Below, piece after piece: positions 2,548 to 27,896 of a stretch of DNA of 34,330 nucleotides. Each line of letters starts with the position of its first letter. Within the stretch, counting starts at the first letter, position 1. This DNA is from an uncultured bacterium. GTDB lineage: Bacteria > Verrucomicrobiota > Kiritimatiellia > RFP12 > UBA1067. Below the pieces are notes generated by a model. The model had not been told where the DNA came from. It made no database searches and was given only the letters and a program-made list of their open reading frames with translations. The stretch is taken from positions 1 through 34,330 of the forward strand of contig CADCCQ010000023.1 of assembly GCA_902799955.1 (NCBI GenBank), in the 5' to 3' direction. Made by a program: the position numbers and the translations under genes.

Positions 2548-2610
2548 AGTTGTTAGTTGATAATTGGCAGATGGTAGTCGCTAGTGGTTAGCCGCTAGTG
2601 GTAAGTCGGC
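2548..2610. repeat. Degenerate heptamer tandem repeat (9 units, intergenic)
   Basis: Nine consecutive 7-base units, eight of which begin with AG (agttgtt, agttgat, aattggc, agatggt, agtcgct, agtggtt, agccgct, agtggta, agtcggc). The period is exact while the units vary. It fills the space between the exported small protein and the GH5 promoter. The tract encodes nothing visible. Confidence 0.75.
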
Positions 2611-2673
2611 AACATTCTCATTCTCTCTTTCTACATTTTCTACACTTCTCCACGGCCAAACTTCTCGTGTTTG

Positions 2674-2682
2674 TGATATAAT
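2674..2682 (+). promoter_or_regulatory. Extended -10 promoter of the GH5 gene
   Basis: TGATATAAT: a TGN extended -10 with a perfect TATAAT at 2677-2682. No convincing -35 lies 16-18 bases upstream. The hexamer ends 7 bases before the ATG at 2690, so the predicted transcription start falls on or next to the start codon. No Shine-Dalgarno is present, so a leaderless mRNA is likely. Confidence 0.6.
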
Positions 2683-2689
2683 ATTCATC

Positions 2690-3841
2690 ATGAAAGTGTA
2701 CCGATGCATCCTTCCGGCGCTGTTCGTCGTCATGGCTGGATGGCAGCTTTGCGCGGCTTCGCTGTGCGGCGTCCATTCGGTGCAGATCGGCTACGACACG
2801 CTTATTGCGCACCGCGGCGAACCGGTGACGGCCGCCCTGGTCCGATATACGGACGCCGTCGCAAAGGCGCCGCGCCGCCGCGGCGTGATGTCGCCCGCGC
2901 GCGACATGACGGAGGACGATTTCAAGACGCTGAAGTCGTGGGGCGCGACGCTCCTCCGGTACCAGATAATCCGCGACTGGTTCGGCGTGAACGCCAACCG
3001 CGACATCGTTGAATACGACAGCTGGATCACGTCGCGGCTCGACCATCTCGACAAGGTCGTTCTTCCGCTGGCGGTGAAGTACGGCCTGAAGGTCGTGATA
3101 GACGTACACGTTCCACCAGGCGGACGCGACGCGGGCTCCGAGCACAACATGTTCTACGAGGAGAGATACGCCAAGTACTTCGTCGACATGTGGCGGCGGA
3201 TCGCGCGGCGCTTCAAGGGTCGCGAGGGAATCTACGGCTACGACCTCATCAACGAGCCGTGCCACAAGCGCATGGCCGTGCCGGGTTTCGACTACTGGAA
3301 CCTTCAGCGCAAGGCGGCCGAGGCTGTCCGCGCCGAGGATCCCAAGACGCCGATCGTCGTGACCTCAAACAAATGGGGCGGGCCGGACGGGTTCGCCGCG
3401 CTCAAGCCACTGCCGGTCGAGAACGTCATCTACCAAGTCCACATGTACGAGCCGTTCGAGTACACGCACCAGCGCGTCCTCGGCGCGCGGCTCGAGACGG
3501 TCGGCTGGCCGAACGCGGAGAAGGGCTGGGACAGGGCGTTCCTTGAACGCAAGCTGAAGCCCGTGCGTGATTTCCAGCTGAAGTATGGCGTGCGGATCTA
3601 TGCCGGCGAGTTCTCGGCGGTATGCTGGGCGCCAGGTGCCGGGAAATACTTGAGCGACTGCATTTCGCTGTTCGAGGAATATGGCTGGGACTGGACGTAC
3701 CACGCATTTCGCGAGTGGCCCGGCTGGAGTGTGGAACACGAGGGCGAGGACTACAAGACTTTTCGCCCGTCCTCGGACAATGCGCGCAAGCGTGCGCTCC
3801 TGAATGGCTTGAATCATGTAAAGGCAGAGGTGGCAAAATGA
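2690..3841 (+). CDS. Secreted glycoside hydrolase family 5 (cellulase/endoglycanase type)
   Basis: This 383-residue protein has a signal peptide (residues 1 to about 23) followed by a single TIM-barrel domain. GH5 hallmarks are visible: the DLINEP strand with the acid/base Glu189, HMYEP with His251, IYAGEFSAV with the nucleophile Glu307, and a late Trp (EWPGW). Enzymes of this family hydrolyse beta-1,4-linked glycans such as cellulose, mannan or xyloglucan; the exact substrate cannot be read from the sequence. Export places it in the periplasm or outside. The start is preceded by no ribosome-binding site but by a -10 element 7 bases away. It overlaps the next glycosidase gene by ATGA, so the two are co-translated and probably attack the same polysaccharide. 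Confidence 0.88.
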   Translation: MKVYRCILPALFVVMAGWQLCAASLCGVHSVQIGYDTLIAHRGEPVTAALVRYTDAVAKAPRRRGVMSPARDMTEDDFKTLKSWGATLLRYQIIRDWFGVNANRDIVEYDSWITSRLDHLDKVVLPLAVKYGLKVVIDVHVPPGGRDAGSEHNMFYEERYAKYFVDMWRRIARRFKGREGIYGYDLINEPCHKRMAVPGFDYWNLQRKAAEAVRAEDPKTPIVVTSNKWGGPDGFAALKPLPVENVIYQVHMYEPFEYTHQRVLGARLETVGWPNAEKGWDRAFLERKLKPVRDFQLKYGVRIYAGEFSAVCWAPGAGKYLSDCISLFEEYGWDWTYHAFREWPGWSVEHEGEDYKTFRPSSDNARKRALLNGLNHVKAEVAK

Positions 3842-5820
3842 ATAAAACAGCAAATACAAGTTGTGTGTGCGCGCTGGCCGCCGTGTTCATGGCAGGTGGC
3901 GTGTTTGCGGCGGGAGACTCCCTTGACAACATGGGGAACGTGCGTCTCAAGGGCTATCTCGGCGAACGGCTGGATGCGATGATCGCGAACCACGTCGCCG
4001 CCCAGGATGTCGATTACATAACCGCGCCGTTCATGGAGAAGACCGAACGCCGGGGATGGTGGCAGACGGAATTCTGGGGCAAGTGGATGCATTCGGCCGT
4101 CCCTTACCAGCGGTACTTGGAGAATGGAAAGTGTAAAGGAGGGGAAGATCTCCATGCCAGTATAGAGCGGGGCGTGGAGAGGATGCTCGCCTCGCAGGAG
4201 CCGAACGGCTATATCGGCAACTACCCAGACGAACTGCGCTGCGGCGAGGGGTGGGATGTCTGGGGCATGAAGTACACGATGATGGGACTGTTGCATTACT
4301 ATGATGGGGAACGGGGAACGGGGAATGGGGAACGGGGGAAAAGGGCGCTTGAGGCGGCAAAGAGGCTGTGCGACTACGTGATTGCCGAGATCGGGCCGAA
4401 TGGCAGACGTGGGCGCGAACTCTGGCAGACGGGCAACTGGTCGGGGTACGCGAGCTCGTCGATCCTTGAGCCTGTCGTCTGGTTGTACAAGCGCTGCGGG
4501 GAAAAGAAATATCTCGACTTCGCCGCCTACATCGTCAAGGGAATGACCGAGCCGGAGTCCGGGCCGCGCCTAATCGACTTGGCCCTCAAGGGCATATCGG
4601 TCGCCGACCGCAATGGATATGGCAACAAGCCCGACGCGCATGGCGGGTATGTTATGAAGCACAACCGCTGGAAGTCATACGAGATGATGAGCTGCTACCA
4701 GGGGCTGCTGGAGTACTGTGAAATTGTGAAGTCGGGTAAATGTGGAAATGCCCACTACTCGGTGCCGCCAGTTGAGGACATCTTCAAGGCCGCTGTGATG
4801 ACGGCCGAGGACATCGTGAAGGAGGAGATAAACCTTGCGGGAGGATGCGCCTGTTCCGAAGCGTGGTTCCACGGGGCGCGCAAGCAGCATCTGCCGTACC
4901 TCAGGCTTCAGGAGACGTGCGTCACCACAACGTGGATGCGCTTCTGCGAGAAGCTGCTGGACACGACCGACAACCCGAAGTGGGCGGACGAGATTGAAAA
5001 GACGTTCTACAACGCCTATCTTGGGGCCATGAAAGCAGACGGCGCCGAGTTCGCGGGATACACGCCGCTCTCCGGCAACCGCTACCATGGGCAGCATCAT
5101 TGCTACATGCACACAGACTGCTGCACGGCGAACGGTCCGCGCGGATTCCTCTGTTTCCTCAAGAAGCTCTTTGCGGTGCGCGACGGTGTCGCGACATTCA
5201 ACTTCTATTCGTCGGCGCTTGTGAGCGGCGAACTGCCGGACGGACGCAAGGTCGCGTTCGACATGTACTCGCTCTATCCCCGCTCGAACGCCGTGCGGAT
5301 CGTGAGCCACACGGAGGGTGTGGGCGAAGTCCCGCTCAGGCTGCGCATTCCGGGATGGAGCGCAAAAACGGAGGTGAAGGTGAACGGCAAGGCGCTTGAA
5401 GGGGTCTCGGCCGGTTCGTATTTCACGGTCAGGAGGGACTGGAAGCTCGGCGACATCGTGGAGATCAAGTTTGACATGCCGGTTGTTGCGCATGTGCTCA
5501 ATCACCACGTGGCATTCACGCGGGGGCCGGTCCTGCTCGCCCGCGACAGCCGCTTTGCGGACGGCGACCTGACGGAGCCGTTCAGGCGCGGGATCAAGGA
5601 CGGACAGCCGATGCCGACGTTCGCGGCGGTACGCACGCCCTCGGACGACATCTGGATGGCGTTTTCCGCGACGCTCCCGATTGGCTCACACCACGAGAAT
5701 CCCGAAGCGGGCAATCCCGCGACCGTGTTTTTCTGCGACTATGCCTCTGCCGGCAACACCTGGCACCGCGACAATTACTACCGAACCTGGTTCCCGGTCG
5801 AATACGGCCCGCACGAGTGA
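3838..5820 (+). CDS. Secreted GH127-like (DUF1680) glycosidase, probable beta-L-arabinofuranosidase
   Basis: This 660-residue protein starts at the ATG overlapping the GH5 stop. Residues 1 to about 25 are a signal peptide. The body resembles the alpha/alpha-barrel family DUF1680/GH127. LRLQETCVTTTW holds Glu359 and Cys361, and HTDCCTANGPR holds Cys428 and Cys429. The family uses a Glu plus a Cys cluster that binds zinc, with one Cys as nucleophile. GH127 enzymes release L-arabinofuranose from arabinan or arabinoglycoprotein side chains. Oddity: residues about 157-168 (GERGTGNGERGK) are encoded by heptamer tandem repeats. They sit in a loop before RALEAAKRL, where I recall relatives having only about four residues. 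Exact family (GH127 versus the related GH146) is uncertain. Confidence 0.82.
   Translation: MNKTANTSCVCALAAVFMAGGVFAAGDSLDNMGNVRLKGYLGERLDAMIANHVAAQDVDYITAPFMEKTERRGWWQTEFWGKWMHSAVPYQRYLENGKCKGGEDLHASIERGVERMLASQEPNGYIGNYPDELRCGEGWDVWGMKYTMMGLLHYYDGERGTGNGERGKRALEAAKRLCDYVIAEIGPNGRRGRELWQTGNWSGYASSSILEPVVWLYKRCGEKKYLDFAAYIVKGMTEPESGPRLIDLALKGISVADRNGYGNKPDAHGGYVMKHNRWKSYEMMSCYQGLLEYCEIVKSGKCGNAHYSVPPVEDIFKAAVMTAEDIVKEEINLAGGCACSEAWFHGARKQHLPYLRLQETCVTTTWMRFCEKLLDTTDNPKWADEIEKTFYNAYLGAMKADGAEFAGYTPLSGNRYHGQHHCYMHTDCCTANGPRGFLCFLKKLFAVRDGVATFNFYSSALVSGELPDGRKVAFDMYSLYPRSNAVRIVSHTEGVGEVPLRLRIPGWSAKTEVKVNGKALEGVSAGSYFTVRRDWKLGDIVEIKFDMPVVAHVLNHHVAFTRGPVLLARDSRFADGDLTEPFRRGIKDGQPMPTFAAVRTPSDDIWMAFSATLPIGSHHENPEAGNPATVFFCDYASAGNTWHRDNYYRTWFPVEYGPHE
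4121..4148. repeat. Short heptamer-period purine tract inside the GH127-like gene
   Basis: Four weak 7-base units (agaatgg, aaagtgt, aaaggag, gggaaga) encode about YLENGKCKGGED. The words GAATGG and AAAGTGTAAA match those of the other heptamer tracts. This is the weakest member of the set. Confidence 0.4.
4306..4340. repeat. Heptamer tandem repeat inside the GH127-like reading frame (5 units)
   Basis: GGGGAAC twice, GGGGAAT, GGGGAAC, GGGGGAA: 35 bases of 7-base units in the coding frame. Three units (21 bases) add exactly seven codons, so gain or loss of other unit numbers would shift the frame. Confidence 0.85.
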
Positions 5821-5846
5821 ACTGAAAAAATTCCTGAATTTTTCGC

Positions 5847-5875
5847 TTGCACATAGCGGCGGAAAAGTGTATTAT
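5847..5875 (+). promoter_or_regulatory. Promoter of the potABCD-rnhC operon
   Basis: TTGCAC (5847-5852), a 17-base spacer and TATTAT (5870-5875), in a short AT-rich gap after the GH127-like gene. The predicted start is near 5882, leaving a leader of about 28 bases to the TTG start of potA. Confidence 0.65.
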
Positions 5876-5910
5876 TCGCATTAGTAGATGAAACAAGAAG
5901 GAGCCAGGAA

Positions 5911-7014
5911 TTGAAAGACGACTTTCTCGTGTTCGACCACGTCACGAAAAGGTTCGGCGCGCTGACTGCCGTCGACGACGTCACGCTTTCCGTGAGGAAA
6001 GGCGAGTTCTTCTCCCTGCTGGGCCCCAGCGGGTGCGGGAAGACTACGCTCCTTCGCATGCTCGGCGGATTCGAGCGCCCCGACTCCGGGCGCATCTACC
6101 TGGAGGGCCAGGACATAACGGACCTTCCGCCCAACCAGCGCCGCGTGCACACCGTCTTCCAGAACTACGCGCTGTTCCCGACGATGACGATCTGGGACAA
6201 CATCGCGTTCTCGCTCAGGCTCGCGAAGCGCCCCAAGGGCGAGGTCGAGGAGAAGGTCGACGCGATACTGGAGATGATCCAGATGAGCGAGCACGCCTGG
6301 AAGTACCCCAACCAGCTCTCCGGCGGGCAGAAGCAGCGCGTCGCCATCGCGCGCGCCCTCGTCGACCGCCCGCAGGTGCTGCTCCTCGACGAGCCGCTCG
6401 CCGCGCTCGACCTCAAGCTGCGCCAGCACATGCTCATCGAGCTCGACGCCATCCACGACCAGGTCGGCATCACCTTCATGTACGTCACCCACGACCAGGG
6501 CGAGGCGATGAGCCTCTCGGACAGAATCGCGGTCGTGAACAAGGGCGGCATAGAGCAGCTCGACGTCCCCGCGAAGATATACGAGGCGCCGACGTCGCGC
6601 TTCGTCGCGTCGTTCATAGGGGACACCAACTTCCTATCGGGCGAGATAACGTCCGTGGATGGCGACTACTGCACGATCAAGACCGACGGCTTCCCGGCGA
6701 TACGCGCCTACAACGACAGGAACCTCGCCGTCGGGCAGCGCGTCGACCTCTCCGTCCGGCCCGAGAAGATCCGCGTCACCCTGACGCCCCCGCCGCCTGA
6801 GAAGGGCGCGGGCATCAACGTGTTCCCCGCGAAGGTCGAGGACATCGTGTACCAGGGCGTGTACACGAGGTACTGGCTCAGGGCGTGCGGACTGAGGATC
6901 GCGGCGCTGAAGCCGCATTCGCGCTTCCTGCTCGACCAGGAGGCGATCACCTGGAACGACGACGCGTTCGTCTGGTGGCATCCCGACGACGGATACATGG
7001 TGGAAGTGAAATGA
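5911..7014 (+). CDS. potA: Spermidine/putrescine ABC transporter ATP-binding protein
   Basis: This 367-residue protein starts at TTG 5911; GAAGGAG at 5897-5903 is 7 bases upstream, and the nearby ATG at 5888 is out of frame. All ABC ATPase motifs are present: Walker A GPSGCGKTT (residues 38-46), Q-loop FQNYALFP, signature LSGGQKQR, Walker B VLLLDEPLAALD and H-loop VTHDQGEAM. The C-terminal third is a TOBE-type regulatory domain (SVRPEKIRVTL). The string RVHTVFQNYALFPTMTIWDNIAF is typical of PotA. It energises polyamine import at the inner membrane. It is first in a tightly coupled operon and overlaps potB by ATGA. Confidence 0.93.
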   Translation: MKDDFLVFDHVTKRFGALTAVDDVTLSVRKGEFFSLLGPSGCGKTTLLRMLGGFERPDSGRIYLEGQDITDLPPNQRRVHTVFQNYALFPTMTIWDNIAFSLRLAKRPKGEVEEKVDAILEMIQMSEHAWKYPNQLSGGQKQRVAIARALVDRPQVLLLDEPLAALDLKLRQHMLIELDAIHDQVGITFMYVTHDQGEAMSLSDRIAVVNKGGIEQLDVPAKIYEAPTSRFVASFIGDTNFLSGEITSVDGDYCTIKTDGFPAIRAYNDRNLAVGQRVDLSVRPEKIRVTLTPPPPEKGAGINVFPAKVEDIVYQGVYTRYWLRACGLRIAALKPHSRFLLDQEAITWNDDAFVWWHPDDGYMVEVK

Positions 7015-8003
7015 AGATGTCCGTCTCCAAGGAGAAGAGGCGGGAGCTGCTGCTCACCTCGCCGTCGTTCCTGTGGCTGCTCGTGTTCTTCGCGGCGCCG
7101 GCGCTGATCGTGCTCGCGTTCACGTTCCACGGGCACACGGCGAACGGCGGCGTCGGCGAGTGGTCGCTCTCCACGTGGCGCGAGCTTGTGGACCCCGACT
7201 ACCCCGCGATCGTCTGGAACACGATCCGCATATCGTTCGAGGTGACGGTCTGGTGCATCGTCCTCGCGGTGCCGTGCGCGTACGCGATAGCGAGGATGTC
7301 GAAGAGGTGGCGCGCGCTCGTGGCGGGGGCGATCATGCTGCCGTTCTGGACGAGCTTCGTGGTGAGGATATTCGCGTGGAAGACGATGCTCCACCCCGAC
7401 GGCTGGCTCCAGGCGTGCTACCTCACGTGGCTGAGGGTCTGCCAGTGGCTGTTCGACTGGATGCCGGGGGCCGTGCAGCGGTTCCTGCTCTGGACGGGCA
7501 TGGCGTCGCCGGGGCGCGTCGACCCGGCGCTCTCCACGATCCTCGACAGCGAGGCCGCGGTCGTGCTGGTCTCGGTCTACTCCTTCCTGCCGTTCGCGAT
7601 AATGCCGATCTACACGGCGGCGGAGAAGTTCGACTTCTCTCTCCTCGAGGCGGCGCGCGACCTCGGGGCCAGGAACTTCTACGCGTTCAGGAAGATATTC
7701 ATCCCGGGCGTCCGGCAGGGGATCGTCTCCGCGGTTCTCATGGTCTTCATCCCGGCGATAGGCTCGTACGTCATCCCGCAGATGCTCGGCGGCACAGAGT
7801 GCGTGCTCATCGGGAACAAGATATTCATGCGCGCGATGCAGAACAGGAACATCCCGCACGCGTCGGCGCTTGCGACGCTGATGGCGGTCTCGGTGCTGGT
7901 GCCGATGGGCCTGGCCATGTGGTGGAAGCGGCGGCAGCTGGCGCGCGACAGGCGCCGGCTGGACATGAGGACCGCGCAGCTGATGACGGGAGGGGAGTCA
8001 TGA
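7011..8003 (+). CDS. potB: Spermidine/putrescine ABC transporter permease PotB
   Basis: This 330-residue inner-membrane permease starts at the ATG overlapping the potA stop. An ATG two codons later is possible but less well coupled. There is an N-terminal basic stretch, then six hydrophobic segments. The EAA loop is clear: LLEAARDLGARNFYAFRKIF followed by IPG, the docking site for PotA. Relative to E. coli PotB it is somewhat longer, with an extra loop around residues 125-165 (HPDGWLQACYLTWLRV). It forms the heterodimeric channel with PotC. Confidence 0.92.
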   Translation: MKMSVSKEKRRELLLTSPSFLWLLVFFAAPALIVLAFTFHGHTANGGVGEWSLSTWRELVDPDYPAIVWNTIRISFEVTVWCIVLAVPCAYAIARMSKRWRALVAGAIMLPFWTSFVVRIFAWKTMLHPDGWLQACYLTWLRVCQWLFDWMPGAVQRFLLWTGMASPGRVDPALSTILDSEAAVVLVSVYSFLPFAIMPIYTAAEKFDFSLLEAARDLGARNFYAFRKIFIPGVRQGIVSAVLMVFIPAIGSYVIPQMLGGTECVLIGNKIFMRAMQNRNIPHASALATLMAVSVLVPMGLAMWWKRRQLARDRRRLDMRTAQLMTGGES

Positions 8004-8824
8004 AGCGCTCGTACTTCTCGACAGTCGTCATGGCGCTGGTGCTGGCGTTCCTCTACGTGCCGATCGTGCTGGTCGTCGTGTACGGGTTCATCCCCAACGG
8101 GATATCGATGAGCTTCTTCGACTCGTCGGGGAGCTTCGCCGGGTTCTCGTCCAGGTGGTACTCCATGATATTCTCGGGCGACTCGCGCCTCGAGGCGCTT
8201 ATGCAGAGCTTCTGGCTCTCGCTCGTCGTCGCGGGGCTCGCGACTCTCGTCTCGTGCGTCCTCGGCACGACCGCCGCGCTCGCGCTCCACAGGTGGCGCT
8301 CGCGCCTGCAGGGCCTCCACCACGCCCTCGTCTACACGCCGCTCATAATGCCCGACATCCTGATCGGCATATCGCTTCTGATGCTCTTCGTGGCCTGCGG
8401 GGTCGACTGCGGGTTCTGGACGATCCTCATCGCGCACGTCACGTTCTGCGTGTCGTACGTCGTGATGACGATCCTCGCGAGGCTCCAGGACTTCGACTAC
8501 CGCATAGTCGAGGCGGCGTACGACCTCGGCGCCGGGCCCTGGTACACGTTCTTCAAGGTGGAGCTCCCGCTGCTGATGCCGGGCATCGTCGCCGGCGGCC
8601 TCCTCGCGTTCACTCTCTCCATAGACGACGTGGTCATAACCTCGTTCGTCAACGGCGCGGGGACGAACACGTTCCCGACGTACGTCAGCTCGATGACGAA
8701 GCACTCCCGGAACCTCCCGGCGGTCTTCGCGCTCTCGACGCTGATGCTGATATTTACCTGCGTGCTGGTTGGCTTGTCGAAGTTCATCGCGCGCGGGCAG
8801 CAACAAAAGACGAAAGGAAGATAA
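8000..8824 (+). CDS. potC: Spermidine/putrescine ABC transporter permease PotC
   Basis: This 274-residue protein starts at the ATG overlapping the potB stop, after the Shine-Dalgarno GGGAGGGGAG. It has a short cytoplasmic start, then six membrane segments. The EAA loop reads IVEAAYDLGAGPWYTFFKVE, followed by LP. The length is normal for PotC. It is the second half of the polyamine channel. The end LSKFIARGQQQKTKGR is a basic cytoplasmic tail. Confidence 0.93.
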   Translation: MKRSYFSTVVMALVLAFLYVPIVLVVVYGFIPNGISMSFFDSSGSFAGFSSRWYSMIFSGDSRLEALMQSFWLSLVVAGLATLVSCVLGTTAALALHRWRSRLQGLHHALVYTPLIMPDILIGISLLMLFVACGVDCGFWTILIAHVTFCVSYVVMTILARLQDFDYRIVEAAYDLGAGPWYTFFKVELPLLMPGIVAGGLLAFTLSIDDVVITSFVNGAGTNTFPTYVSSMTKHSRNLPAVFALSTLMLIFTCVLVGLSKFIARGQQQKTKGR

Positions 8825-8829
8825 AGCAA

Positions 8830-9987: not shown

Positions 9988-9994
9988 GGGCGCG

Positions 9995-11026: not shown

Positions 11027-11123
11027 GAAAAATATTTTCCCTTCCCGGTTCGTCTATCTTTGTGTAGGCGCCATGGTGGCGTCTGTAAAATGCGGCGGGG
11101 ACGCCGCGAAAGGAAAGGGAAAG
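11027..11123 (+). promoter_or_regulatory. Leader of the LTxxQ protein/ECF sigma operon
   Basis: This 97-base gap begins AT-rich and then holds inverted repeats: CGCCA-TGG-TGGCG (11069-11081), and GGCGTC (11078-11083) with GACGCC (11100-11105). The two share bases, so only one can form at a time. AAAGGAAAGGG lies just before the ATG at 11124. I see no confident promoter; TATCTT at 11055 is a weak candidate. Confidence 0.3.
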
Positions 11124-11708: not shown

Positions 11709-11714
11709 GGCCGG

Positions 11715-12685: not shown

Positions 12686-12766
12686 CCGCCCCGCGCCATC
12701 TGCCTGCTTTGCGTCGTCGCTTTCACTGTTCCGCATTGCAAAAAACCGACCTCGAAGGCGAATTTG

Positions 12767-12775
12767 TGATATACT
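12767..12775 (+). promoter_or_regulatory. Extended -10 promoter of the GH78 gene
   Basis: TGATATACT, with TATACT at 12770-12775, preceded by TTTG as at the GH5 promoter. No good -35 at standard spacing. The leader to ATG 12848 is about 65 bases and can fold a hairpin (GTCG 12792-12795 and CCC 12798-12800 with GGG-CGAC 12812-12818). Confidence 0.5.
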
Positions 12776-17537: not shown

Positions 17538-17556
17538 AAAACAGGGGGATGACGTC

Positions 17557-18000: not shown

Positions 18001-18042
18001 GAAAACCCGTAACGAAACAACCAATCACCAAGGAAGACCAAA

Positions 18043-18273: not shown

Positions 18274-18291
18274 CGCGAAAGGAGCGCTGCA

Positions 18292-18762: not shown

Positions 18763-18791
18763 GCCTCGGGCGTGTCTGAACGAGAAAGGAA

Positions 18792-18827
18792 GGGGGCGCC
18801 GTCCGTTCCGGACGACGCCCCCTTTTT
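18792..18827 (+). terminator. Intrinsic terminator after rplI
   Basis: The stem GGGGGCG (18792-18798) pairs with CGCCCCC (18816-18822) and CGTCC (18800-18804) with GGACG (18810-18814). There is one internal mismatch and a 5-base loop, and TTTTT follows. A next gene starts only 7 bases after the T-run. Confidence 0.92.
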
Positions 18828-18833
18828 GTTTCC

Positions 18834-20159: not shown

Positions 20160-20181
20160 ATGCTGAAGGGACTGCAGGCAA

Positions 20182-21618: not shown

Positions 21619-21630
21619 GGGGCATGCACC

Positions 21631-22599
21631 ATGAAACGATTCCTGAAAAGGCTTTTGATGTTTGCGTTGGTGGTGTTCGTCCCCGCCGCGCTTTGGGTCG
21701 CCCTCGTCGTCGCGCTCGACAGGTCGAGCTACGTCTCGTCGCTGAAGATTCCGGAGGGCGCGTCGATTGTGGTGTGCGGGGATTCGCAGACGAAGGACGC
21801 GCTTGACCCCGCGCACATCCCCGGCTTCTTCAATTTCTCCAACGCGGCCTCGCTCCACGACCAGAACATGCTTCGCCTGAAGGACCTCTTTCTCGCCAAC
21901 CCGGGGAAGGTCAAAGTCGTCCTGGTCGACGCATCCCCGCTGAAGCTCGGCTACGACCCGGCGAAGCCGGTCTCGGACACCGAGGCGGCGCGTGTGCACT
22001 TCCTCATCCACGTCTACCACCTTGGCGAGGGCGTCCGCCCCGTCGGATCGTGGACGAAACTTGTAAGGGACGTCCTCTTCACGCGCAAGTTCAACGAGTT
22101 CAGGAAGTCGATCCTTCGCGGGAAGCGCTGGCGCTCGTCGCTTGCTGGCGGATTCGACCCGGACAAGACGCACGGCTTCGTCAACCCCCGCTACAGGGAG
22201 ATGGCGCTGGCCGACGTGAAGGACAAGGCCGAACGAGTGAATTCGCTTCCGCCCGCCGACGGGAACGAGCTGCTGTTCGGTGTGCTGGAGGCGCAAATCG
22301 ACCTGGTTCGCGCTCAGGGCGCAATTCCAGTGCTGACGACTATGCCGCTCTCGGGCCCGCTTCTGGAGGCAGTCGACTCCGCCCGGCTTGACGCCTTCAC
22401 GAAGGCCGTCCGCGGGCTCGCAGAAAGGAAGGGCGTCAAGTACATCGACTGCCTGCGGTTTAAAACGGACGACTCCGCCTGGCACGATGCAAACCATCTT
22501 AACCGGGACGGAGCCGCCGCGTTTTCCGACGCATTCGCGCCGCTGCTTAGAGGATGTCTATCTTCTTCGCCTGCGTCTCAGGGCGCTTCTTCACGATGA
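21631..22599 (+). CDS. Membrane-anchored SGNH-like protein, probable O-acetylation partner of the MBOAT protein
   Basis: This 322-residue protein has one N-terminal membrane helix (about residues 7-30), then an extracytoplasmic domain. VVCGDSQTKDAL holds the block-I Ser52, and WHDANHLNRDG holds Asp286 and His289, the DxxH of SGNH/GDSL enzymes. AlgJ/AlgX-like proteins of this kind pass the acetyl group from the MBOAT protein to the polysaccharide. AGGGGG lies 8 bases before the ATG. The natural fold ends near APLLRG; the last 17 codons run antisense into the hsp20 gene, an overlap of 53 bases. Confidence 0.78.
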   Translation: MKRFLKRLLMFALVVFVPAALWVALVVALDRSSYVSSLKIPEGASIVVCGDSQTKDALDPAHIPGFFNFSNAASLHDQNMLRLKDLFLANPGKVKVVLVDASPLKLGYDPAKPVSDTEAARVHFLIHVYHLGEGVRPVGSWTKLVRDVLFTRKFNEFRKSILRGKRWRSSLAGGFDPDKTHGFVNPRYREMALADVKDKAERVNSLPPADGNELLFGVLEAQIDLVRAQGAIPVLTTMPLSGPLLEAVDSARLDAFTKAVRGLAERKGVKYIDCLRFKTDDSAWHDANHLNRDGAAAFSDAFAPLLRGCLSSSPASQGASSR

Positions 22600-22885
22600 C
22601 CGTGAGCACGCCGTTCTCCAGCTTTGCCGCGAGCGTCTTGGGATCTGCCATCTCCGGCAGGTCCGCCGTCAGCGCGTAGTTCGGGTATGTGAACTCGGTC
22701 ACGACCTCCTTGAACCCCGCAGGGTTCTGGTACTTCGCGTGCGTCTTCAGCGTCAGCGTCTTGCCGTCGATGTGAAGCTCCGCATCTTCCTTTGCTATGC
22801 CCGGCAGCTGCACCTTGAGCTCGTATTCCTCCGGCTTCTCGGTGAATGTCGCGGTCGGAACCTCGAATTTCTCTTCGCTGTTCAT
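22547..22885 (-). CDS. Small heat-shock protein, Hsp20 family (second in operon)
   Basis: This 112-residue protein is almost entirely an alpha-crystallin domain: YELKVQLPGIAKEDAELHIDGKTLTL, then LENGVLTVIVKKRPE and a short tail with KIDIL (an I-x-I-like anchor). Such proteins hold unfolding clients as oligomers without ATP. AAAGGAG precedes the start. It follows another hsp20 gene with a 33-base gap. Its 3' end overlaps the convergent SGNH gene. Confidence 0.9.
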   Translation of the reverse strand: MNSEEKFEVPTATFTEKPEEYELKVQLPGIAKEDAELHIDGKTLTLKTHAKYQNPAGFKEVVTEFTYPNYALTADLPEMADPKTLAAKLENGVLTVIVKKRPETQAKKIDIL

Positions 22886-22918
22886 TTCAGGTCTCCTTTC
22901 TTGTATGAGGTTGTTGCC

Positions 22919-23317
22919 TTAGGCGATTGCGATCCTGCGCACGCCATCCGTTTCCGATTTCGGGAGTTCGATGCGGAGGATTCCGTTTTCGAACTTCGCG
23001 TTTGCCTTCGACGCGTCGACGCGGAAGGGGAGCTCCACGCGGCGGCTCCACGCGGGCGCCTTCCTCTCGGCACCGTCCGTCGGCTCCGCCGGCTTGTCCG
23101 CAATCACCACCGCCTGCGCCTCCAGCGTCAGGTCTACGTCCTTCGCCGTCTTGCCGGGAAGCTGCAGGTCGACGATCATGGCATTGTCGTCGAGGAACAC
23201 ATTCACCGGCGGAAAACGGCCGGCCGCGCGCGCCCTCATGTTTCTGAAGACGTTGCCGCCGACATTCAGAATGTCATCCAGGAAACTCCATGGATCCATA
23301 TTTATCAGTGTGTTCAT
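22919..23317 (-). CDS. Small heat-shock protein, Hsp20 family (first in operon)
   Basis: This 132-residue protein is read from ATG 23317, after AAAGGAGAAAC on the minus strand; an upstream in-frame GTG lacks a ribosome site. The N-terminus MDPWSFLDDILN is the hydrophobic, client-binding arm. The alpha-crystallin domain runs from about residue 35 (PPVNVFLDDNAMIVDLQLPGKTAKDVDLTLE) to FENGILRIELPKSE. It is transcribed with the second hsp20. The upstream sequence holds a sigma-54-like element. Confidence 0.9.
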   Translation of the reverse strand: MNTLINMDPWSFLDDILNVGGNVFRNMRARAAGRFPPVNVFLDDNAMIVDLQLPGKTAKDVDLTLEAQAVVIADKPAEPTDGAERKAPAWSRRVELPFRVDASKANAKFENGILRIELPKSETDGVRRIAIA

Positions 23318-23354
23318 TTTTGTTTCTCCTTTCGTTTGACAACACAAGGAGATA

Positions 23355-23371
23355 TGCACACACCGTGCCAA
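23355..23371 (-). promoter_or_regulatory. Sigma-54-type (-24/-12) promoter of the hsp20 pair
   Basis: The minus strand reads TTGGCACGGTGTGTGCA, matching YTGGCACGRNNNTTGCW at all defined positions but one; GG at -24 and GC at -12 are correctly spaced. The predicted start is near 23344, giving a leader of about 27 bases to ATG 23317. A second TTGGCACGG (23392-23400) lies 29 bases upstream without a -12 half. Confidence 0.6.
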
Positions 23372-23401
23372 CGGGAATTTGCGTCAGATTGCCGTGCCAA
23401 C

Positions 23402-23418
23402 TGCGACACAAAGTCGCA
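23402..23418. promoter_or_regulatory. Perfect 6-bp inverted repeat between thiF and hsp20
   Basis: TGCGAC-ACAAA-GTCGCA lies upstream of the hsp20 promoter and just past the thiF stop. It could be an operator or a weak hairpin ending thiF. No T-run follows on either strand, so it is not a standard terminator. Confidence 0.35.
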
Positions 23419-23436
23419 TTGTGGGACAAAATCGGC

Positions 23437-24036
23437 CTAAAGTTCTTTTCCCAGCAGAATGGCAGCGACGGCATTGGCCTGCATTGCCGCGGCGATTGTC
23501 ACGCGAGGCCCGACTGGCGCCAGGCCGTCACGCACGTCACTGGCGAAGTCTCCGACCATGACGAGGTTGCGTCCTATGCGCCTTGTCCTGATTTCGTTGG
23601 AGCGCCCCCATCCAGCGAGGCCGCTTGCGCCGACGACCTTCATCCCTGCTGGGAGTAGTCTCTCAAGAAGCATCCGCTTGCTTTCCGCTGAGTCGAACGC
23701 CTCGACTACGATGTCGCAGCCGGAAAAGACGTCTAGGATGTTGTCCGTGGTAAGCCGCGTGTCGTGGACGGAGACGTCAAGGTCGTCTTCAATCATCCTG
23801 AGGTTGTCGGCGAGGGCGTGGACCTTCTTCTCGCCGAGCTGTCTGCGGAAGTAGAACTGGCGGTTGAGATTGGATTCGTTCACTACGTCGAAGTCAGCGA
23901 TGACGAGATTCCTCACGCCTGCGCGCACAAGCAGCATGGCGCAGTTCGATCCTAGCCCGCCGGCCCCTGCGATGCCGACCCTGGCAGACTCGAGGATGCG
24001 TCGCTCGTCTTCCGTGAGATATGGATTGGCGCTCAT
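23437..24036 (-). CDS. thiF: ThiF-like adenylyltransferase (short, type-2 form)
   Basis: This protein is about 199 residues from ATG 24036 (MSANPYLT...); a GTG at 24060 is a possible alternative start. It has an E1-like nucleotide-binding fold: VGIAGAGGLGSNCAMLLVRAGV (GxGGxG), LVIADFDVVNESNLNRQFYF (D-x(n)-NLNRQ, the ATP/Mg site) and the crossover DIVVEAFDSAESKRMLLE. The length of about 200 fits the ThiF subfamily that lacks the C-terminal zinc Cys pairs. It adenylates the C-terminal Gly-Gly of ThiS to load sulfur for the thiamin thiazole. thiS lies directly upstream. Confidence 0.82.
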   Translation of the reverse strand: MSANPYLTEDERRILESARVGIAGAGGLGSNCAMLLVRAGVRNLVIADFDVVNESNLNRQFYFRRQLGEKKVHALADNLRMIEDDLDVSVHDTRLTTDNILDVFSGCDIVVEAFDSAESKRMLLERLLPAGMKVVGASGLAGWGRSNEIRTRRIGRNLVMVGDFASDVRDGLAPVGPRVTIAAAMQANAVAAILLGKEL

Positions 24037-24043
24037 GATTCCG

Positions 24044-24134
24044 CAACTTTCACTTTGCACTTCTCATTTACATTTTGCATTTTACACTTTGCATTTTACA
24101 CTTTACACTTTACATTTTACACTTCCCACTTCCC
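24044..24134. repeat. Heptamer tandem repeat separating thiS and thiF (13 units)
   Basis: Thirteen 7-base units in perfect register (for example cactttg, attttgc, attttac, actttgc, actttac, acttccc). On the coding (minus) strand these are purine-rich words such as GTAAAAT and GTAAAGT. The tract fills the gap between the thiS stop and the thiF start and supplies whatever ribosome site thiF has. Confidence 0.92.
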
Positions 24135-24136
24135 CC

Positions 24137-24334
24137 CTAGCCTCCCGCGACGATCCTGTAGGCGTTCAGCTCCGCGCCTTCGGCGAGCGGCGTCGCGGCG
24201 GCGTCGGCCGTGCCGAGGATTTCTCCGTTGTACTCGACTACTGCTTCGCCCTCGCCGATCCCTGCGGACGCGAGGAACTCGCCGACCGTCGCGGCGGTGG
24301 TCTCAGTGCTTTTTCCCTGATATGTTATCTGCAT
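24137..24334 (-). CDS. thiS: Sulfur carrier protein ThiS
   Basis: This 65-residue protein has a ubiquitin-like fold with the ThiS pattern: a short beta-hairpin, TVGEFLASAGI, VVEYNGEIL, EGAELNAYRIVAGG. The C-terminal Gly-Gly is the adenylation and thiocarboxylation site. It precedes thiF on the minus strand, its activating enzyme, so the pair supplies sulfur for thiamin thiazole synthesis. Other thi genes are not in the window. Confidence 0.9.
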   Translation of the reverse strand: MQITYQGKSTETTAATVGEFLASAGIGEGEAVVEYNGEILGTADAAATPLAEGAELNAYRIVAGG

Positions 24335-24364
24335 GGCTCTTCGTGCCTTTCAATGCTGGCGAAT

Positions 24365-24395
24365 ATTATACCACAACATAACATTGCTATTTCAA
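24365..24395 (-). promoter_or_regulatory. Promoter of thiS-thiF
   Basis: On the minus strand TTGAAA (24395-24390), a 19-base spacer and TATAAT (24370-24365) with a TGG extension. The predicted start is near 24358, about 24 bases before the thiS ATG. No TPP-riboswitch-like stretch fits in that leader. Confidence 0.6.
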
Positions 24396-24446
24396 CTTTT
24401 CGCCTCGGAGTTGTCGAACGAACACGCGCCCGTCCCCGGAGACGGT

Positions 24447-24566
24447 ACACCCCCGTCCCCCTACGTGTTCCCGGCGGCGCAGTCACAGTACGCCAGGAAC
24501 AAGAACAGGATATTCCAGGCCGTCAAGCCCGTGTTCGCCCGCGCCGTGTTCGGAGACGTCGAGCCG
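24447..24566 (+). pseudogene. Possible tyrosine-recombinase (integrase) remnant
   Basis: In frame from 24447 the translation contains PYVFPAAQSQYARNKNRIFQ, then AVKPVFARAVFG. The YVFP-x(n)-Y-x-RN pattern resembles the segment just before the catalytic HxLRH box of phage-type integrases in PVC-group bacteria. No HxLRH box or catalytic Tyr follows in any frame. The rest of 24400-24700 shows no other recognisable gene. The call rests on memory of family patterns and is tentative. Confidence 0.3.
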
Positions 24567-24704
24567 GAATCGGACGTGGGCGACGCTGGCCGTGGATCCA
24601 CCACCAGCGCAACAGGCCGGGCCGGGGACGTTCCCGCCGCTGACCGCTTGCGAGAAAGTCCTTGCCAACGATGATGACGCCCGAAGAATATGCCGCGAAA
24701 CGTA

Positions 24705-24733
24705 ATGCAACAAGCGGCGGAATATGATATACT
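24705..24733 (+). promoter_or_regulatory. Promoter of the RelB-HicB-like gene
   Basis: ATGCAA (24705-24710), a 17-base spacer and TATACT (24728-24733) with a TGA extension. It has the same form as the rplY promoter. The leader of about 40 bases ends in AAGAAAGGA before ATG 24778. Confidence 0.65.
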
Positions 24734-24777
24734 ATTCCGTGTTGCAAGTGAAAGCGAAATGAAGAAAGGATTGAACC

Positions 24778-25137
24778 ATGAGACTTAATGGGCGAACAGG
24801 CAGGGCAAGGGCGGCGACGCTTGACCTTGACCTTGCACAACGGGCGGAGCGAAAGTTGCGCCGTTATGGAACCGACTTGAACGGGGTGCTGGCGTTCATC
24901 GTCGCCGTTCGCGGGTTGCCCGACTTGCGCAACGCCCCGCAGACGATGGACTTCACAACGCACGGGCAGACCTTCACGGCGGACGTGACGTCCGACTCCG
25001 ACGGCGGGTATTGCGCAACCGTGCGCGGGCACGACAACTGCTTTACCGAGGCTGATACCCTGCCGGAACTGCGCAAGTGCCTTGTGGAGGTGACAGACCT
25101 CATGCTCTTCGACGAGGGCGAGAGGGCGGCGCAATGA
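24778..25137 (+). CDS. RelB-like/HicB-like fusion antitoxin
   Basis: This 119-residue protein appears to have two antitoxin modules. Residues about 12-52 (ATLDLDLAQRAERKLRRYGTDLNGVLAFIVAVRGLPDLRN) resemble the ribbon-helix-helix DNA-binding start of RelB/DinJ proteins. Residues about 57-112 (FTTHGQTFTADVTSDSDGGYCATVRGHDNCFTEADTLPELRKCLVEVTDLML) match the HicB partial RNase-H fold. HicB antitoxins bind HicA mRNA interferases. AAGGA lies 7 bases before the ATG. The next start overlaps by ATGA but yields only 14 codons. Function as an active antitoxin is inferred. Confidence 0.62.
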   Translation: MRLNGRTGRARAATLDLDLAQRAERKLRRYGTDLNGVLAFIVAVRGLPDLRNAPQTMDFTTHGQTFTADVTSDSDGGYCATVRGHDNCFTEADTLPELRKCLVEVTDLMLFDEGERAAQ

Positions 25138-25178
25138 AGCCATTGACCGCAGTGCGAGTGAAAGCGCTCTTTTGTTAG
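25134..25178 (+). pseudogene. Truncated start of a toxin gene (possible hicA stump)
   Basis: An ATG overlapping the antitoxin stop (ATGA, the usual coupling here) begins MKPLTAVRVKALFC and then stops. HicA toxins often begin with a similar K-P/L-(S/T)-x-x-(E/V)-V-x-K-x-L segment. The likely reading is a toxin gene cut off near its start. Fourteen codons are too few for certainty. Confidence 0.3.
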
Positions 25179-25274
25179 TGCCTCTACCTACTTTCCTGTC
25201 CCCCACTTTGTCGTCCACTTTCAGGGTGAAAAAGGGTGTAATGGGGTGTAAAGGCGGACGGATTCACGGAAAAG

Positions 25275-25301
25275 AAAAAACCCGTTTTTATTGGGTTTTT
25301 T
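25275..25301. terminator. Bidirectional intrinsic terminator between the antitoxin remnant and tRNA-Pro
   Basis: AAAAAACCC (25275-25283) pairs with GGGTTTTTT (25293-25301) around a 9-base loop. It offers a T-run on both strands, so it can end transcripts from the left and the tRNA transcript from the right. The GC core is only 3 bp. The rest of 25179-25314 holds nothing I recognise. Confidence 0.6.
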
Positions 25302-25314
25302 CTTGATTTTTCAA

Positions 25315-25391
<77 letters not shown>

Positions 25392-25507
25392 AATCTGAAA
25401 TCCCTGGCTTCAGGCTAGGAATTTCCAAGTAACAATATAGTATATCAGATTTTTCCCATTTTGTGTTAAAAGAAATTTCTGAATAATTTTGCGGCCGCAA
25501 ACCGATG

Positions 25508-25536
25508 TTGAATAGATGGCGCGGATTTGTTATAAT
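25508..25536 (+). promoter_or_regulatory. Promoter of the GH31 operon
   Basis: TTGAAT (25508-25513), a 17-base spacer and TATAAT (25531-25536) with a TGT extension. The predicted start is near 25543, which rules out the in-frame codon at 25505 as the start. The leader to ATG 25640 is about 97 bases with no clear structure. Confidence 0.75.
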
Positions 25537-25639
25537 TATCGCTATATGGGAAATTGCCATGGACCCTTTTGTGTGCAGGCGGCGTTGGAACGTGCCGGAT
25601 GCAAGTGGCAGGCGGAAGGGGCTTGACGATAGGAGCCAG

Positions 25640-27865
25640 ATGAGAGCAGCAAACGACATGAAAAAGATGAAAGCAGGTTCGGCGGGACGCGCGGCGATGT
25701 GCGCGGCGACGTGCGTTGCGGTGATGTGCGCGGCGGCGCGGGGCGCGCTGCCGTCCGGCGCGGTGACCGTCGCAACGCCGTCCGGCGGCGTGTGCGTGTC
25801 GTCTCCGTCGAAGGGGGCGCTTCGCGTGACGCGTGGCGCCCCGGTCAGCCCGGAGCTTGTGTTCGTCTCCGCGAAGGGCGAGCCGGTGTCCGTCGAGAAC
25901 GTTGCGGAAGGGGTGCGCGTGAGGTCCGGCGACCTCGCGGCGGTCGTCTCGCGCACGACTGGGCTCGTGCGCTTCGAGGGGCCGGACGGCACGGTCCTTT
26001 CCGAACGCGAGGTCGGCGAGAGGTCCGTCGCGTTCGACTCGCCGTTGGGAGAGCGGCTCTACGGTCTCGGGCAGTTCCAGGACGGTGCGCTCGACGTCCG
26101 CAACCTGCCGCGCCGCCTCGTTCAGGTCAATACGCAGGTCGCGTCCCCGTTCCTCGTCTCCACCCGCGGCTGGGGCCTCTACTGGCACACTTACGCGAAG
26201 GTGGACTTCAACCCATGCGCCAATGCGGTCGCGCTTGCGAAGGAGGGCGAGGGCGCGGCGAAGACAGTTGACGTCTCGACTGGCGCGGGCAGGGCGAAGG
26301 AGAGCCGCCGCGACGTGGCGTACGTCGGCGAGTTCGAGGTGCGCGAGGCCGGCGAGTACGCCTTCATGTTCGACTGCGGCTCCAGGATGGCACGCCAGCA
26401 GGTCGTGGAGATTGACGGGAGGAGGGTCGTGGACAACAGAAACTTCTGGCTTCCTCCGGCGGTCGGATTCAGGGCCGCGCTAAAGCCGGGCCGCCACAAG
26501 GTCAGGGTGCTGGCGGAGTCTCGCGACAGGCCTTCGCTCGCGTTCCGCGCCGACCGCGGCGAGACGCGCTTCGCCACCGACTCCCCGAGGACCGGCACCG
26601 ACTACGTCGTCTACCTGGGCGCCCCCGAGCGCGCGGTCGCGAACTTCCGCGCCGACACCGGCGGGACCGCCGCGCTCCCCGACTGGGCGTGGGGATACTG
26701 GCACTGCCAGGAGCGCTTCAGGTCGCAGGCGGACCTCCTCGCCGCGATGCGCTGGTTCAGGTCGCGCGGGCTGCCGCTCTCGGTGATCGTCCAGGACTGG
26801 CAGTGGTGGCGGAAGGGGACGTGGAACTCGATGGAGTGGGATTCGGAGCACTACCCCGACCCGAAGGCGATGGCGGACGAGTGCCATGCCAACGGCGTGA
26901 GGGTCATGCTCAGCGTGTGGTCCAAGACCGGGGGGAACAGCGCCTTTATGTCGGAGCTCAAGGCGGCCAATGCGTTCGTCCCCGGTACCCAGTGGATAGA
27001 CTTCTCCAGCCCGCGGGCGTGCGACGTCTACTGGAGGTGGTTTGAGAGGTGCTGCGTCTCGAAGGGGATCGACGCATGGTGGCTGGACGCTGTGGAGCCG
27101 GAGAACGACGACCTCCACGGGCGCACGTTCGCGCTCGGCTCCGGCGACGTATACCGCAACGTCTACCCGCTTCTCGTGAACACCGAGGCCGACCGCAGGA
27201 TGCGCGCGCTGCGCCCCGGCGAGACGCCGCTTGTGCTGACGCGCTGCGCGTTCGCCGGCCAGCAGAGGACGGCGTCAGTCGTGTGGAGCGGCGACGTCGG
27301 CGGCTCGTGGGACGCGCTGCGCAAGCAGGTCGTCGCCGGGCTTGGCTTCGCGGCGGCGGGCTTCCCGTACTGGACGAGCGACTGCGGCGGGTTCTTCCGC
27401 CCGGGCGACCAGTACACGAACAAGGCGTACCACAGGGTCCTGGCGCGGTGGATGGAGTTCGCGACGTTCTGCCCCGTCCAGCGCGTGCACGGATACAAGA
27501 GCGACACGACGCCTTCACGCTACGGCCCGGAGATGGAGAGGCTGCTCTGCGACCAGATCCGCCTGCGCGAGCGCCTAAAGCCGTACATCCTGAAGACGGC
27601 GAATGACGTCGCATCGAAGAACGCGATGTTCATGCGCCCGCTGTGGGACGCGCCGGCGGGGTTCGAGACGGAGTACATGTTCGGCGAGGACATGCTTGTC
27701 TGCCCGGTGACGTCCGACGTGGAGGAGATGGACGTGTGGCTGCCGGCAGGCGAGTGGCGGGACTTCCACACCGGCGAGGCGGTCTCGGGCGGGCGCGTCC
27801 TGCGCGTCAAGGCGCCGCTGGACAGAATCCCGGTGTACGAGAGAATGGCGAAGGATGGCAAATGA
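25640..27865 (+). CDS. Secreted GH31 glycosidase with PA14-like insert (alpha-xylosidase/alpha-glucosidase type)
   Basis: This 741-residue protein starts at ATG 25640 after AGGAG (25631-25635), with a signal peptide ending near residue 36; upstream in-frame starts lack ribosome sites. The N-terminal beta-sandwich carries ERLYGLGQFQDGALD (about 138-152). A PA14-like module is inserted at about 215-295 (YVGEFEVREAGEYAFMFDCG ... VVEIDGRRVVDN ... LKPGRHKVRVLAE), as in some Bacteroides xyloglucan alpha-xylosidases. The barrel has WWLDAVEPE (nucleophile Asp483) and WSGDVGGSWD (acid/base Asp552). It removes alpha-linked xylose or glucose from non-reducing ends. Its stop lies inside a heptamer repeat tract that also forms the start region of the next gene. 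Confidence 0.9.
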   Translation: MRAANDMKKMKAGSAGRAAMCAATCVAVMCAAARGALPSGAVTVATPSGGVCVSSPSKGALRVTRGAPVSPELVFVSAKGEPVSVENVAEGVRVRSGDLAAVVSRTTGLVRFEGPDGTVLSEREVGERSVAFDSPLGERLYGLGQFQDGALDVRNLPRRLVQVNTQVASPFLVSTRGWGLYWHTYAKVDFNPCANAVALAKEGEGAAKTVDVSTGAGRAKESRRDVAYVGEFEVREAGEYAFMFDCGSRMARQQVVEIDGRRVVDNRNFWLPPAVGFRAALKPGRHKVRVLAESRDRPSLAFRADRGETRFATDSPRTGTDYVVYLGAPERAVANFRADTGGTAALPDWAWGYWHCQERFRSQADLLAAMRWFRSRGLPLSVIVQDWQWWRKGTWNSMEWDSEHYPDPKAMADECHANGVRVMLSVWSKTGGNSAFMSELKAANAFVPGTQWIDFSSPRACDVYWRWFERCCVSKGIDAWWLDAVEPENDDLHGRTFALGSGDVYRNVYPLLVNTEADRRMRALRPGETPLVLTRCAFAGQQRTASVVWSGDVGGSWDALRKQVVAGLGFAAAGFPYWTSDCGGFFRPGDQYTNKAYHRVLARWMEFATFCPVQRVHGYKSDTTPSRYGPEMERLLCDQIRLRERLKPYILKTANDVASKNAMFMRPLWDAPAGFETEYMFGEDMLVCPVTSDVEEMDVWLPAGEWRDFHTGEAVSGGRVLRVKAPLDRIPVYERMAKDGK

Positions 27866-27896
27866 CGAACGGCGAACAATGAAGAGTGAAGGGAGG
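27855..27896. repeat. Heptamer tandem repeat across the GH31 stop and the next start region
   Basis: The 7-base units atggcaa, atgacga, acggcga, acaatga, agagtga, agggagg run through the last GH31 codons and into the ribosome-binding site of the next gene. Units are degenerate, but the -GA endings keep register. Confidence 0.6.

Follow-up and report, generated by a model that had tools for sequence, protein, structure and literature searches.

Heptanucleotide arrays recur across a Kiritimatiellae-like genome and occupy loops of two predicted enzymes

Why should short tandem repeats with the same 7-nt period, built from different units, recur at unrelated positions of a single contig? The question is raised by contig CADCCQ010000023.1 (assembly GCA_902799955.1), analyzed here whole as one window of 34,330 nt from a 3.81-Mb genome that is assembled in 148 contigs and 92% complete. 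In it, an initial annotation had singled out five tracts whose unit sequences drift while their 7-nt period stays strict. We found that the shared period with drifting units, which that annotation had rightly seen in the window, runs throughout the sampled genome, and that one enzyme loop holds different units in different species. On balance, we lean toward the view that the tracts are part of a genome-wide set of arrays with 7-nt, less often 8-nt, units that grow by slippage and seed new sites by short-patch copying; our confidence in it is somewhat better than even.

Each tract was scored by the fraction of positions identical at lag 7, with 2000 base shuffles of the tract as the null. The tracts, and the gene that holds two of them, are as follows.
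2548..2610, plus strand: degenerate heptamer array of the TAGTSGY family, intergenic, 5' of a GH5 gene; lag-7 identity 0.61, reached by 0 of 2000 shuffles.
3838..5820, plus strand: GH127 beta-L-arabinofuranosidase-like gene (Pfam PF07944 and PF20736).
4121..4148, plus strand: tract in loop 1 of the GH127 gene, about residues 95-104; lag-7 identity 0.38, reached by 1216 of 2000 shuffles.
4306..4340, plus strand: GGGGAAY array in loop 2 of the GH127 gene, about residues 157-168, peptide GERGTGNGERG; lag-7 identity 0.86, 0 of 2000 shuffles.
24044..24134, minus strand: TGTAAAR array, intergenic; lag-7 identity 0.75, 0 of 2000 shuffles.
27855..27896, plus strand: degenerate heptamer array spanning the stop of a GH31 gene and the start of the next gene; lag-7 identity 0.66, 0 of 2000 shuffles.

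The period was thus borne out in four of the five tracts and not in 4121-4148. At lags 4, 5, 8, 10, 11 and 13, no window of equal length matches the values of the four confirmed tracts. At lag 7, the values of tracts 2548, 4306, 24044 and 27855 are matched by 65, 12, 0 and 88 other windows, respectively, every one of which overlaps another of the four. Tandem Repeats Finder (TRF) reported 4306-4337 with period 7 (score 57), 24067-24121 with period 7 and 24046-24131 with period 21 (scores 75 and 95), and 2575-2602 with period 14. The tracts at 2548 and 24044 are intergenic, the latter next to a ThiF gene, that at 27855 lies across a stop/start junction, and those at 4121 and 4306 are both within the GH127 gene.

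The genome, designated G000, was sampled as 20 stretches of at most 20 kb each, which together with the window amount to 428 kb. Segments with a score of at least 13 were counted as arrays, and five Markov-3 simulations of equal size served as the null. The sample contains 34 lag-7 arrays against 0, 0, 1, 1 and 0 in the simulations, so the part of the genome sampled shows the lag-7 excess whose absence the initial annotation had named as a refutation. Other lags gave 14 segments (lag 8), 11 (lag 9), 13 (lag 12) and 7 (lag 6), one each at lags 4 and 5, and none at lags 10, 11 and 13. The simulations hold no lag-8 segment, and a weaker 8-nt class of arrays is present beside the 7-nt class. Since 8-nt and 9-nt arrays and indels occur, to call the period strict was too strong. 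Of 31 long arrays, 16 have a higher self-match at a shift of 14 or 21 nt than at one of 7 nt. Codon bias does not explain the arrays, because 7 is not a multiple of 3 and 31 of the 37 lag-7 arrays with a score of at least 12 lie outside called genes in a sample of which about 80% is called coding (the calls come from our own codon-usage script, which is crude and misses some genes).

A few unit families cover most of these arrays: the 7-nt families TGTAAAR, GAATGNR, GAAGTCC, GGGGAAY, AGCTCCA and TAGTSGY and the 8-nt families TCTAGNNA and ATTCCRYA. Families were counted from at least three units with one mismatch allowed per unit, so neighboring families can be confused, as with the TAGTSGY matches of the relative G012, which are CCACGAA arrays. 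Arrays of the TAGTSGY type, to which the tract at 2548 belongs, are also present in three other stretches of G000 (L019, L026 and L028) and in genomes G352 and G355. With at most one mismatch, GGGGAACGGGGAACGGG matches G000 78 times, overlaps included, and by our own grouping these matches fall into about 35 places; its reversed control has no match in that genome.

Related genomes use different sets of units. The comparison covered 80 stretches from 16 relatives, of which G034, with stretches that read as N, was excluded from the array counts and nevertheless kept in the TGTAAAR genome survey and the GH127 locus set described below. The distinguishing families are TGTAAAR (16 arrays), GAATGNR (13) and GAAGTCC (6) in G000 (428 kb), CCACGAA (5) in G012 (100 kb), AATTAGR (9) in G056 (70 kb) and GTTCTCY (15) in G059 (100 kb), a member of another family of the order, and each of these dialect families has 0 to 2 arrays in any other sampled genome. 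The array-rich relatives G012, G056 and G059 have lag-7 loads of 8, 9 and 11 arrays in 100, 70 and 100 kb, respectively. Within the family, 7 of 14 genomes contain three successive GGGGAAY units, with one mismatch; among the 274 other genomes of the phylum sample 3 do so, one of the three being no better than the control. Three TGTAAAR units, with one mismatch, were found in 15 of 96 genomes including G000, where the reversed control also matches (21 versus 153). Among the matches listed for the 21-mer GGGGAACGGGGAAYGGGGAAY are named Kiritimatiellae and Lentisphaerae, several of them from the rumen, as well as the distant taxa Dyella, Rhodanobacter, Nostoc, Fischerella, Planctomycetes and Gemmatimonadetes. 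Records of named Kiritimatiellae from the rumen of sheep and of yak contain GGGGAAY arrays. The RNase HII encoded in the window is 50-74% identical to that of nine genomes behind named records with GGGGAACGGGGAAYGGGGAAY; this identity, rather than a tree, suggests that the genome belongs to the Kiritimatiellae of the rumen.

Some further arrays of G000 were noted in passing. The 428-kb sample has 251 CTAG sites, of which 59 fall within 555 bp made up of four CTAG-based 8-nt arrays, at L012 17672-17854, L021 3171-3311 and 17562-17672, and L026 419-464. Two unlinked places (L016 9763-9812 and L021 1229-1294) carry 9-nt arrays of one kind, CGGGACGGG. Copies of a GAAGTCC/GACTTC array block (L019 17655-17800 and 18630-18860) flank one open frame, as if the frame sat between repeats. 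GGAATGA arrays at L020 13281-13336 and 13925-14003 lie inside and at the end of one gene, which presumably is a type I restriction specificity gene.

In the GH127 protein, relatives of which have solved structures, an array site could be compared between species. An AlphaFold2 model (mean predicted local distance difference test, pLDDT, 67.9; predicted TM-score, pTM, 0.77) places tract 4121 in a predicted turn (residues 97-102) between helices 77-97 and 102-118, and tract 4306 in a second (residues 158-164) between helices 141-158 and 164-185. The DNA of loop 2 was examined at 15 loci of the genus including the window, chosen by highest score from 46 genomes that had a match. Periodicity at lag 7 has p < 0.01 in 7 of the 15 loci and 0.015 in an eighth (1000 shuffles), and at least four unit types are found. 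The unit is GGGGAAC in G000 and G006, with a worn form in G004, a fourfold GGGCAGC in G036, AAGTGTA/AAGTTGA in G029, CGTCTCN in G020 and G042, and TCTCATC/TAACATC in G024 (p of 0.015). Besides the GH127 gene, CGTCTMN arrays occupy roughly six places of the G042 genome and roughly five of the G020 genome. For GGGCAGC, the GH127 loop is the sole place in G036, and relatives carry GGGGAAC there; this unit is a local variant that took over all copies, that is, a case of local homogenization.

At the protein level, 120 GH127 homologues were compared with the query, and loop 2 could be bounded in 98 of the proteins. Peptides were assigned to families by motifs of our own, which were set after the loops had been read and by which one loop may fit two families: 33 are GGGGAAY-like, 13 AAGTGTA-like, 9 GGGAARR-like, 5 CGTCTCN-like, 5 of the GTTGGAG type and 3 GAATGNR-like. 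Two pairs of proteins (P0038 and P0049; P0001 and P0078) differ in loop 2 by exactly 7 residues, or 21 nt. Loop 1, bounded in 63 of the 121 proteins, holds heptamer-like peptides of the same kinds as loop 2, including GNGEWGTGNG and EKCKVESVKCKV in relatives, and here P0005 and P0046 differ by 7 residues. The GH127 gene of G004 (L149) has a further loop with a RLRQDFGGQAGAQ-type insert that is found in none of the other 14 loci.

The second case is a glycosyltransferase of G000, P0122, which is unrelated to the GH127 protein. One of its loops has an insert of the AAGTGTA type, and a second loop has one of the GGACTTC type. Across P0122 and 119 listed homologues, loop 2 ranges from 16 to 82 residues, and the 114 bounded loops of the 120 comprise 91 distinct peptides. 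Proteins that are nearly identical elsewhere differ in these loops. Loop 2 of P0123 is 31 residues longer than that of P0122 at 99.1% identity outside the loops; in P0136 both loops differ (98.5%) and in P0135 loop 2 does (96.1%), loop 2 being wholly changed in each. In the 12 pairwise alignments examined, gaps are confined to the two loops and the C-terminus. The proteins P0122, P0132, P0135 and P0136, which are 95.8-98.8% identical outside the loops, carry two loop-1 and two loop-2 alleles in all four combinations, so either recombination or repeated replacement is needed. The DNA compared among these four was that of P0122, so it is for P0122 only that the replaced alleles are proven arrays. 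One loop of P0136 has SKLKA repeated at 7 residues. The sequence clusters represented by P0123 and P0132 have 13 and 11 members, respectively. Loop DNA could be bounded in 23 of 25 loci of the genus, with the best lag at 7 in 9 (p < 0.01 in 7 of them), at 8 in 2 and at some other value in 12. The G012 locus carries CCACGAA, the dialect of its own genome.

We propose that arrays would lengthen and homogenize by slipped-strand replication in 7-nt steps, a step perhaps set by the footprint of the polymerase. New sites may be seeded from existing arrays by short-patch template switching guided by microhomology, and strains may swap loop alleles by homologous recombination through conserved flanks. 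Selection would retain only stop-free, in-frame arrays in exposed loops, and stop-bearing arrays could persist at gene ends. Co-directional gaps and protein loops would in this way come to contain array sequence that varies from one relative to the next. Slippage, which the initial annotation had put forward, is supported by the exact 7-residue differences between related proteins and by the long arrays whose self-match is higher at 14 or 21 nt, and it explains the period, the homogenization and the 21-nt differences. It leaves the presence of a few units at many places and the change of unit in one loop, for which copying between sites and exchange between strains are needed. In both of these respects the suggestion of a mobile repeat also fits, since one unit occupies many unlinked places per genome and different units occupy one site in relatives.

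Several observations weigh against this proposal. No pair of strains was caught in the act of array change, we found no donor array whose flanks are shared, so that we infer the copying step, and no gene was found that tracks array load. Four relatives yielded no lag-7 array in the DNA sampled, namely G004 (51 kb), G006 (100 kb), G047 (54 kb) and G030 (22 kb). Tract 4121-4148 has no 7-nt period of its own, 7 of the 15 GH127 loop-2 loci lack period 7, and the best lag is other than 7 in 14 of the 23 glycosyltransferase loops. With motifs that were set after the loops were seen, 33 of the 98 GH127 loop-2 peptides match none of them; the same is true of 20 of the 114 glycosyltransferase loop-2 peptides and of loop 2 of P0135, P0136 and P0137, which were compared as protein.

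Since the loops vary even among proteins with about 96-99% identity in their other parts, heptamer repeats would rapidly supply new protein sequence. Steps of 7 nt would shift the reading frame, as slippage does at phase-variable contingency loci, where it turns a gene on and off; the comparison covered intact proteins only. We can also envisage the arrays as a standing generator, in which the arrays peculiar to a genome keep being inserted into exposed loops of enzymes, exchanged for others and swapped between strains, with the dialect set by a species-specific trans-acting factor. We hold this stronger version to be doubtful; if it were true, the loops of carbohydrate enzymes and glycosyltransferases would outpace any point-mutation clock.

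One alternative to the proposed combination of slippage and copying is that slippage acts alone, each array having grown in place from a chance duplication. The 21-nt differences between related loops would be expected from it, and the confinement of GGGCAGC to the GH127 loop of G036 is just such a case. It does not account for the recurrence of the same few units at many unrelated places of one genome, different from one genome to another, nor for the different units that one loop holds in different species, and we regard it as improbable.

Alternatively, the loop diversity may consist of old alleles shuffled between strains by homologous recombination, with the arrays as relics. The four allele combinations found at the two glycosyltransferase loops speak for such shuffling. 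On the other hand, 91 distinct peptides among 114 bounded loops require a source of new alleles, as does the length change of P0123 in a near-identical protein. A probability about as low as that of slippage alone seems appropriate here.

A third alternative is that arrays are kept by selection as signals, whether as stop/restart linkers, as hairpins at mRNA 3' ends or as protein-binding sites between the genes of operons. The bias toward gaps between co-directional genes, which the initial annotation had anticipated, is present: among 128 arrays of 7- or 8-nt units from 16 genomes, 73 lie in such gaps, 29 in genes, 8 in divergent and 7 in convergent gaps, and 11 lack a neighbor on one side. 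In all genomes together, 28 of the 73 begin no more than 15 nt before or after the upstream stop, another 3 extend over that stop further, and 8 finish at most 15 nt from the called start of the next gene. Of the 12 exact-TGTAAA arrays of G000 in co-directional gaps, 11 are on the sense strand and 9 begin within 15 nt of the called stop; 4 more such arrays, located elsewhere, stand outside this count. Read as TAAARTG, the unit is a stop codon, an A and a start codon, and because 7 = 2 x 3 + 1, an array of it supplies all three frames with both kinds of codon once per 21 nt. For the same reason closeness to stops is partly circular, since an array that has stops in all frames cuts short whichever gene it enters, and we rejected it as proof of function. 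In G059, whose 7-nt units lack stops, only 2 of the 8 lag-7 arrays in co-directional gaps are that near to a stop. Selection for signals also leaves unexplained the arrays in protein loops and the change of unit at one site. We therefore consider it rather unlikely.

Two tracts of the window illustrate these settings. The array at 24044-24134 has TGTAAAR on the sense strand of the minus-strand ThiF gene (Pfam) that comes after it, and the gene call directly upstream, 24137-24334 on the minus strand, is short and weak. The stop codon of the GH31 gene is located within the array at 27855-27896. The DNA adjoining four GH31 relatives (62-71% identity) has no match to the next gene, and so no empty site for this tract is available. 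The terminal residues of the GH31 protein are unlike those of the four relatives, whose ends are also unlike one another.

Inverted partners bear both on hairpins and on a possible writer enzyme. Within 250 bp, 21 of 124 arrays have an inverted partner (4 of the 128 lacked flanks), compared with 1 in a control with the flanks of another genome and 4 in a control that was reversed and not complemented. Several glycosyltransferase loops consist of an array followed by its own reverse complement, and 8 of 23 fold with z < -3; none of the five window tracts does. The hairpin is therefore a frequent feature and not a rule, and it was rejected as a general principle.

A dedicated enzyme could write the arrays, be it a telomerase-like reverse transcriptase, a transposase associated with repetitive extragenic palindromic (REP) elements (Y1), or end-joining with filler DNA. 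A template peculiar to each genome would account for the genome-specific units, the inverted partners are what REP systems would give, and Y1_Tnp is found in 14 of 16 genomes. RVT_1 is found in 19 of 58 genomes of the genus, yet has no match in G000, G012 and G040, all of which bear arrays and whose assemblies are 88-92% complete; a reverse transcriptase, whether of a diversity-generating retroelement or of a telomerase-like writer, was accordingly abandoned as the means of the templated addition that the initial annotation had suggested. No Y1_Tnp was found in the array-rich G056 and G059, and Ku was found in 0 of 16 genomes, most of which are incomplete, so that neither shows a fitting pattern over the 16. 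REP elements and bacterial interspersed mosaic elements (BIME), with their REP-associated tyrosine (RAYT, Y1) transposases, are intergenic, follow stop codons in operons and are sometimes paired in hairpins. The present arrays differ from them in that no conserved palindrome was seen and in the array-rich genomes without Y1_Tnp. We judge a writer enzyme to be quite unlikely.

An assembly or binning artefact, for which the 148 contigs of the assembly and a contig of G056 with arrays near both ends (L219, 58-237 and 16966-17076) might be cited, is scarcely credible because like loops and units recur in many separate assemblies and in multi-member clusters, and the named rumen Kiritimatiellae records carry GGGGAAY arrays. 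Assemblies may break at long arrays, so array counts may be lower bounds, and heptamer arrays are a trap for assemblers and aligners alike.

Heptanucleotide repeats have precedents in other bacteria. The short tandemly repeated repetitive (STRR) heptanucleotides of Cyanobacteria are said to go back to Mazel and colleagues in 1990. The present arrays resemble STRR and long simple sequence repeats (LSSR) in the 7-nt unit, in several dispersed families per genome and in heptamers being the commonest long class. The excess over neighboring lengths is seen here as well, with 34 arrays at lag 7 versus 1, 7, 14, 11 and 0 at lags 5, 6, 8, 9 and 10, and the arrays are dispersed and mainly outside genes. 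They differ from STRR/LSSR in occurring in Kiritimatiellae, in the different unit sets of related species and in the occupation of protein loops. The phenomenon known from Cyanobacteria, Xanthomonas and Beggiatoaceae is thus now found in Kiritimatiellae.

The nearest precedent is the P6b element of the Nostoc tRNA-Leu (UAA) intron, a heptamer-built stem-loop that has been repeatedly replaced (PMC4476775). As here, P6b is a variable site that is based on 7-nt motifs (one of two), has complementary arms and has been replaced in its entirety more than once; P6b is an RNA loop with two classes, whereas here the loops are protein-coding, the classes are many and arrays occur elsewhere too (PMC4476775). 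Heptamers of the form GGGNATC are described in Xanthomonas and Nostoc, and three heptanucleotides of Calothrix are mentioned (PMC4692102). GGGGAAY is a near neighbor of the G-quadruplex heptamer GGGGA(C/T)T and shares its location in co-directional gaps, often near a stop; the GGGNATC repeat loci are reported to be more stable and to prefer four units, in contrast to the fast loop turnover and the commoner other families seen here (PMC4692102). The TAACTGA direct repeats of Beggiatoaceae are, like the present arrays, scattered over the genome and patchily common to distant lineages (PMC4679880). They comprise a single unit, mostly right before start codons, with related units rarely repeated, as opposed to several units and loops here (PMC4679880). 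The idea that the polymerase footprint sets the 7-nt step is that of Mrazek et al. 2007, as related in PMC4679880.

The initial annotation knew of no description for a genome of this kind. Heptamers have been described in Xanthomonas, Beggiatoaceae and Bacteroidetes, so the statement was too broad; for Kiritimatiellae it stands, in that keyword searches of the open-access literature turned up no paper on heptamer arrays in this group, nor did a keyword search turn up one on heptamer arrays in protein loops. We have not seen described the differences in unit sets among related species or the rapid replacement of protein loops at array sites. A set of relatives that have many arrays, almost none or arrays of other units, together with comparable loops inside conserved genes, makes it testable why heptamers predominate in bacterial lineages scattered over the tree, both as to which gene or condition tracks array load and as to the pace of array turnover. 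The arrays may also offer bacterial enzymes a route to new loop sequence without point mutation.

Next to the tract at 2548, a promoter-like block at 2618-2690 of the window resembles one at L022 18465-18570. Both contain TTCTACAY repeats, CACGGCCAAAC and a TATAAT-like box, and they sit upstream of two different genes on different contigs.

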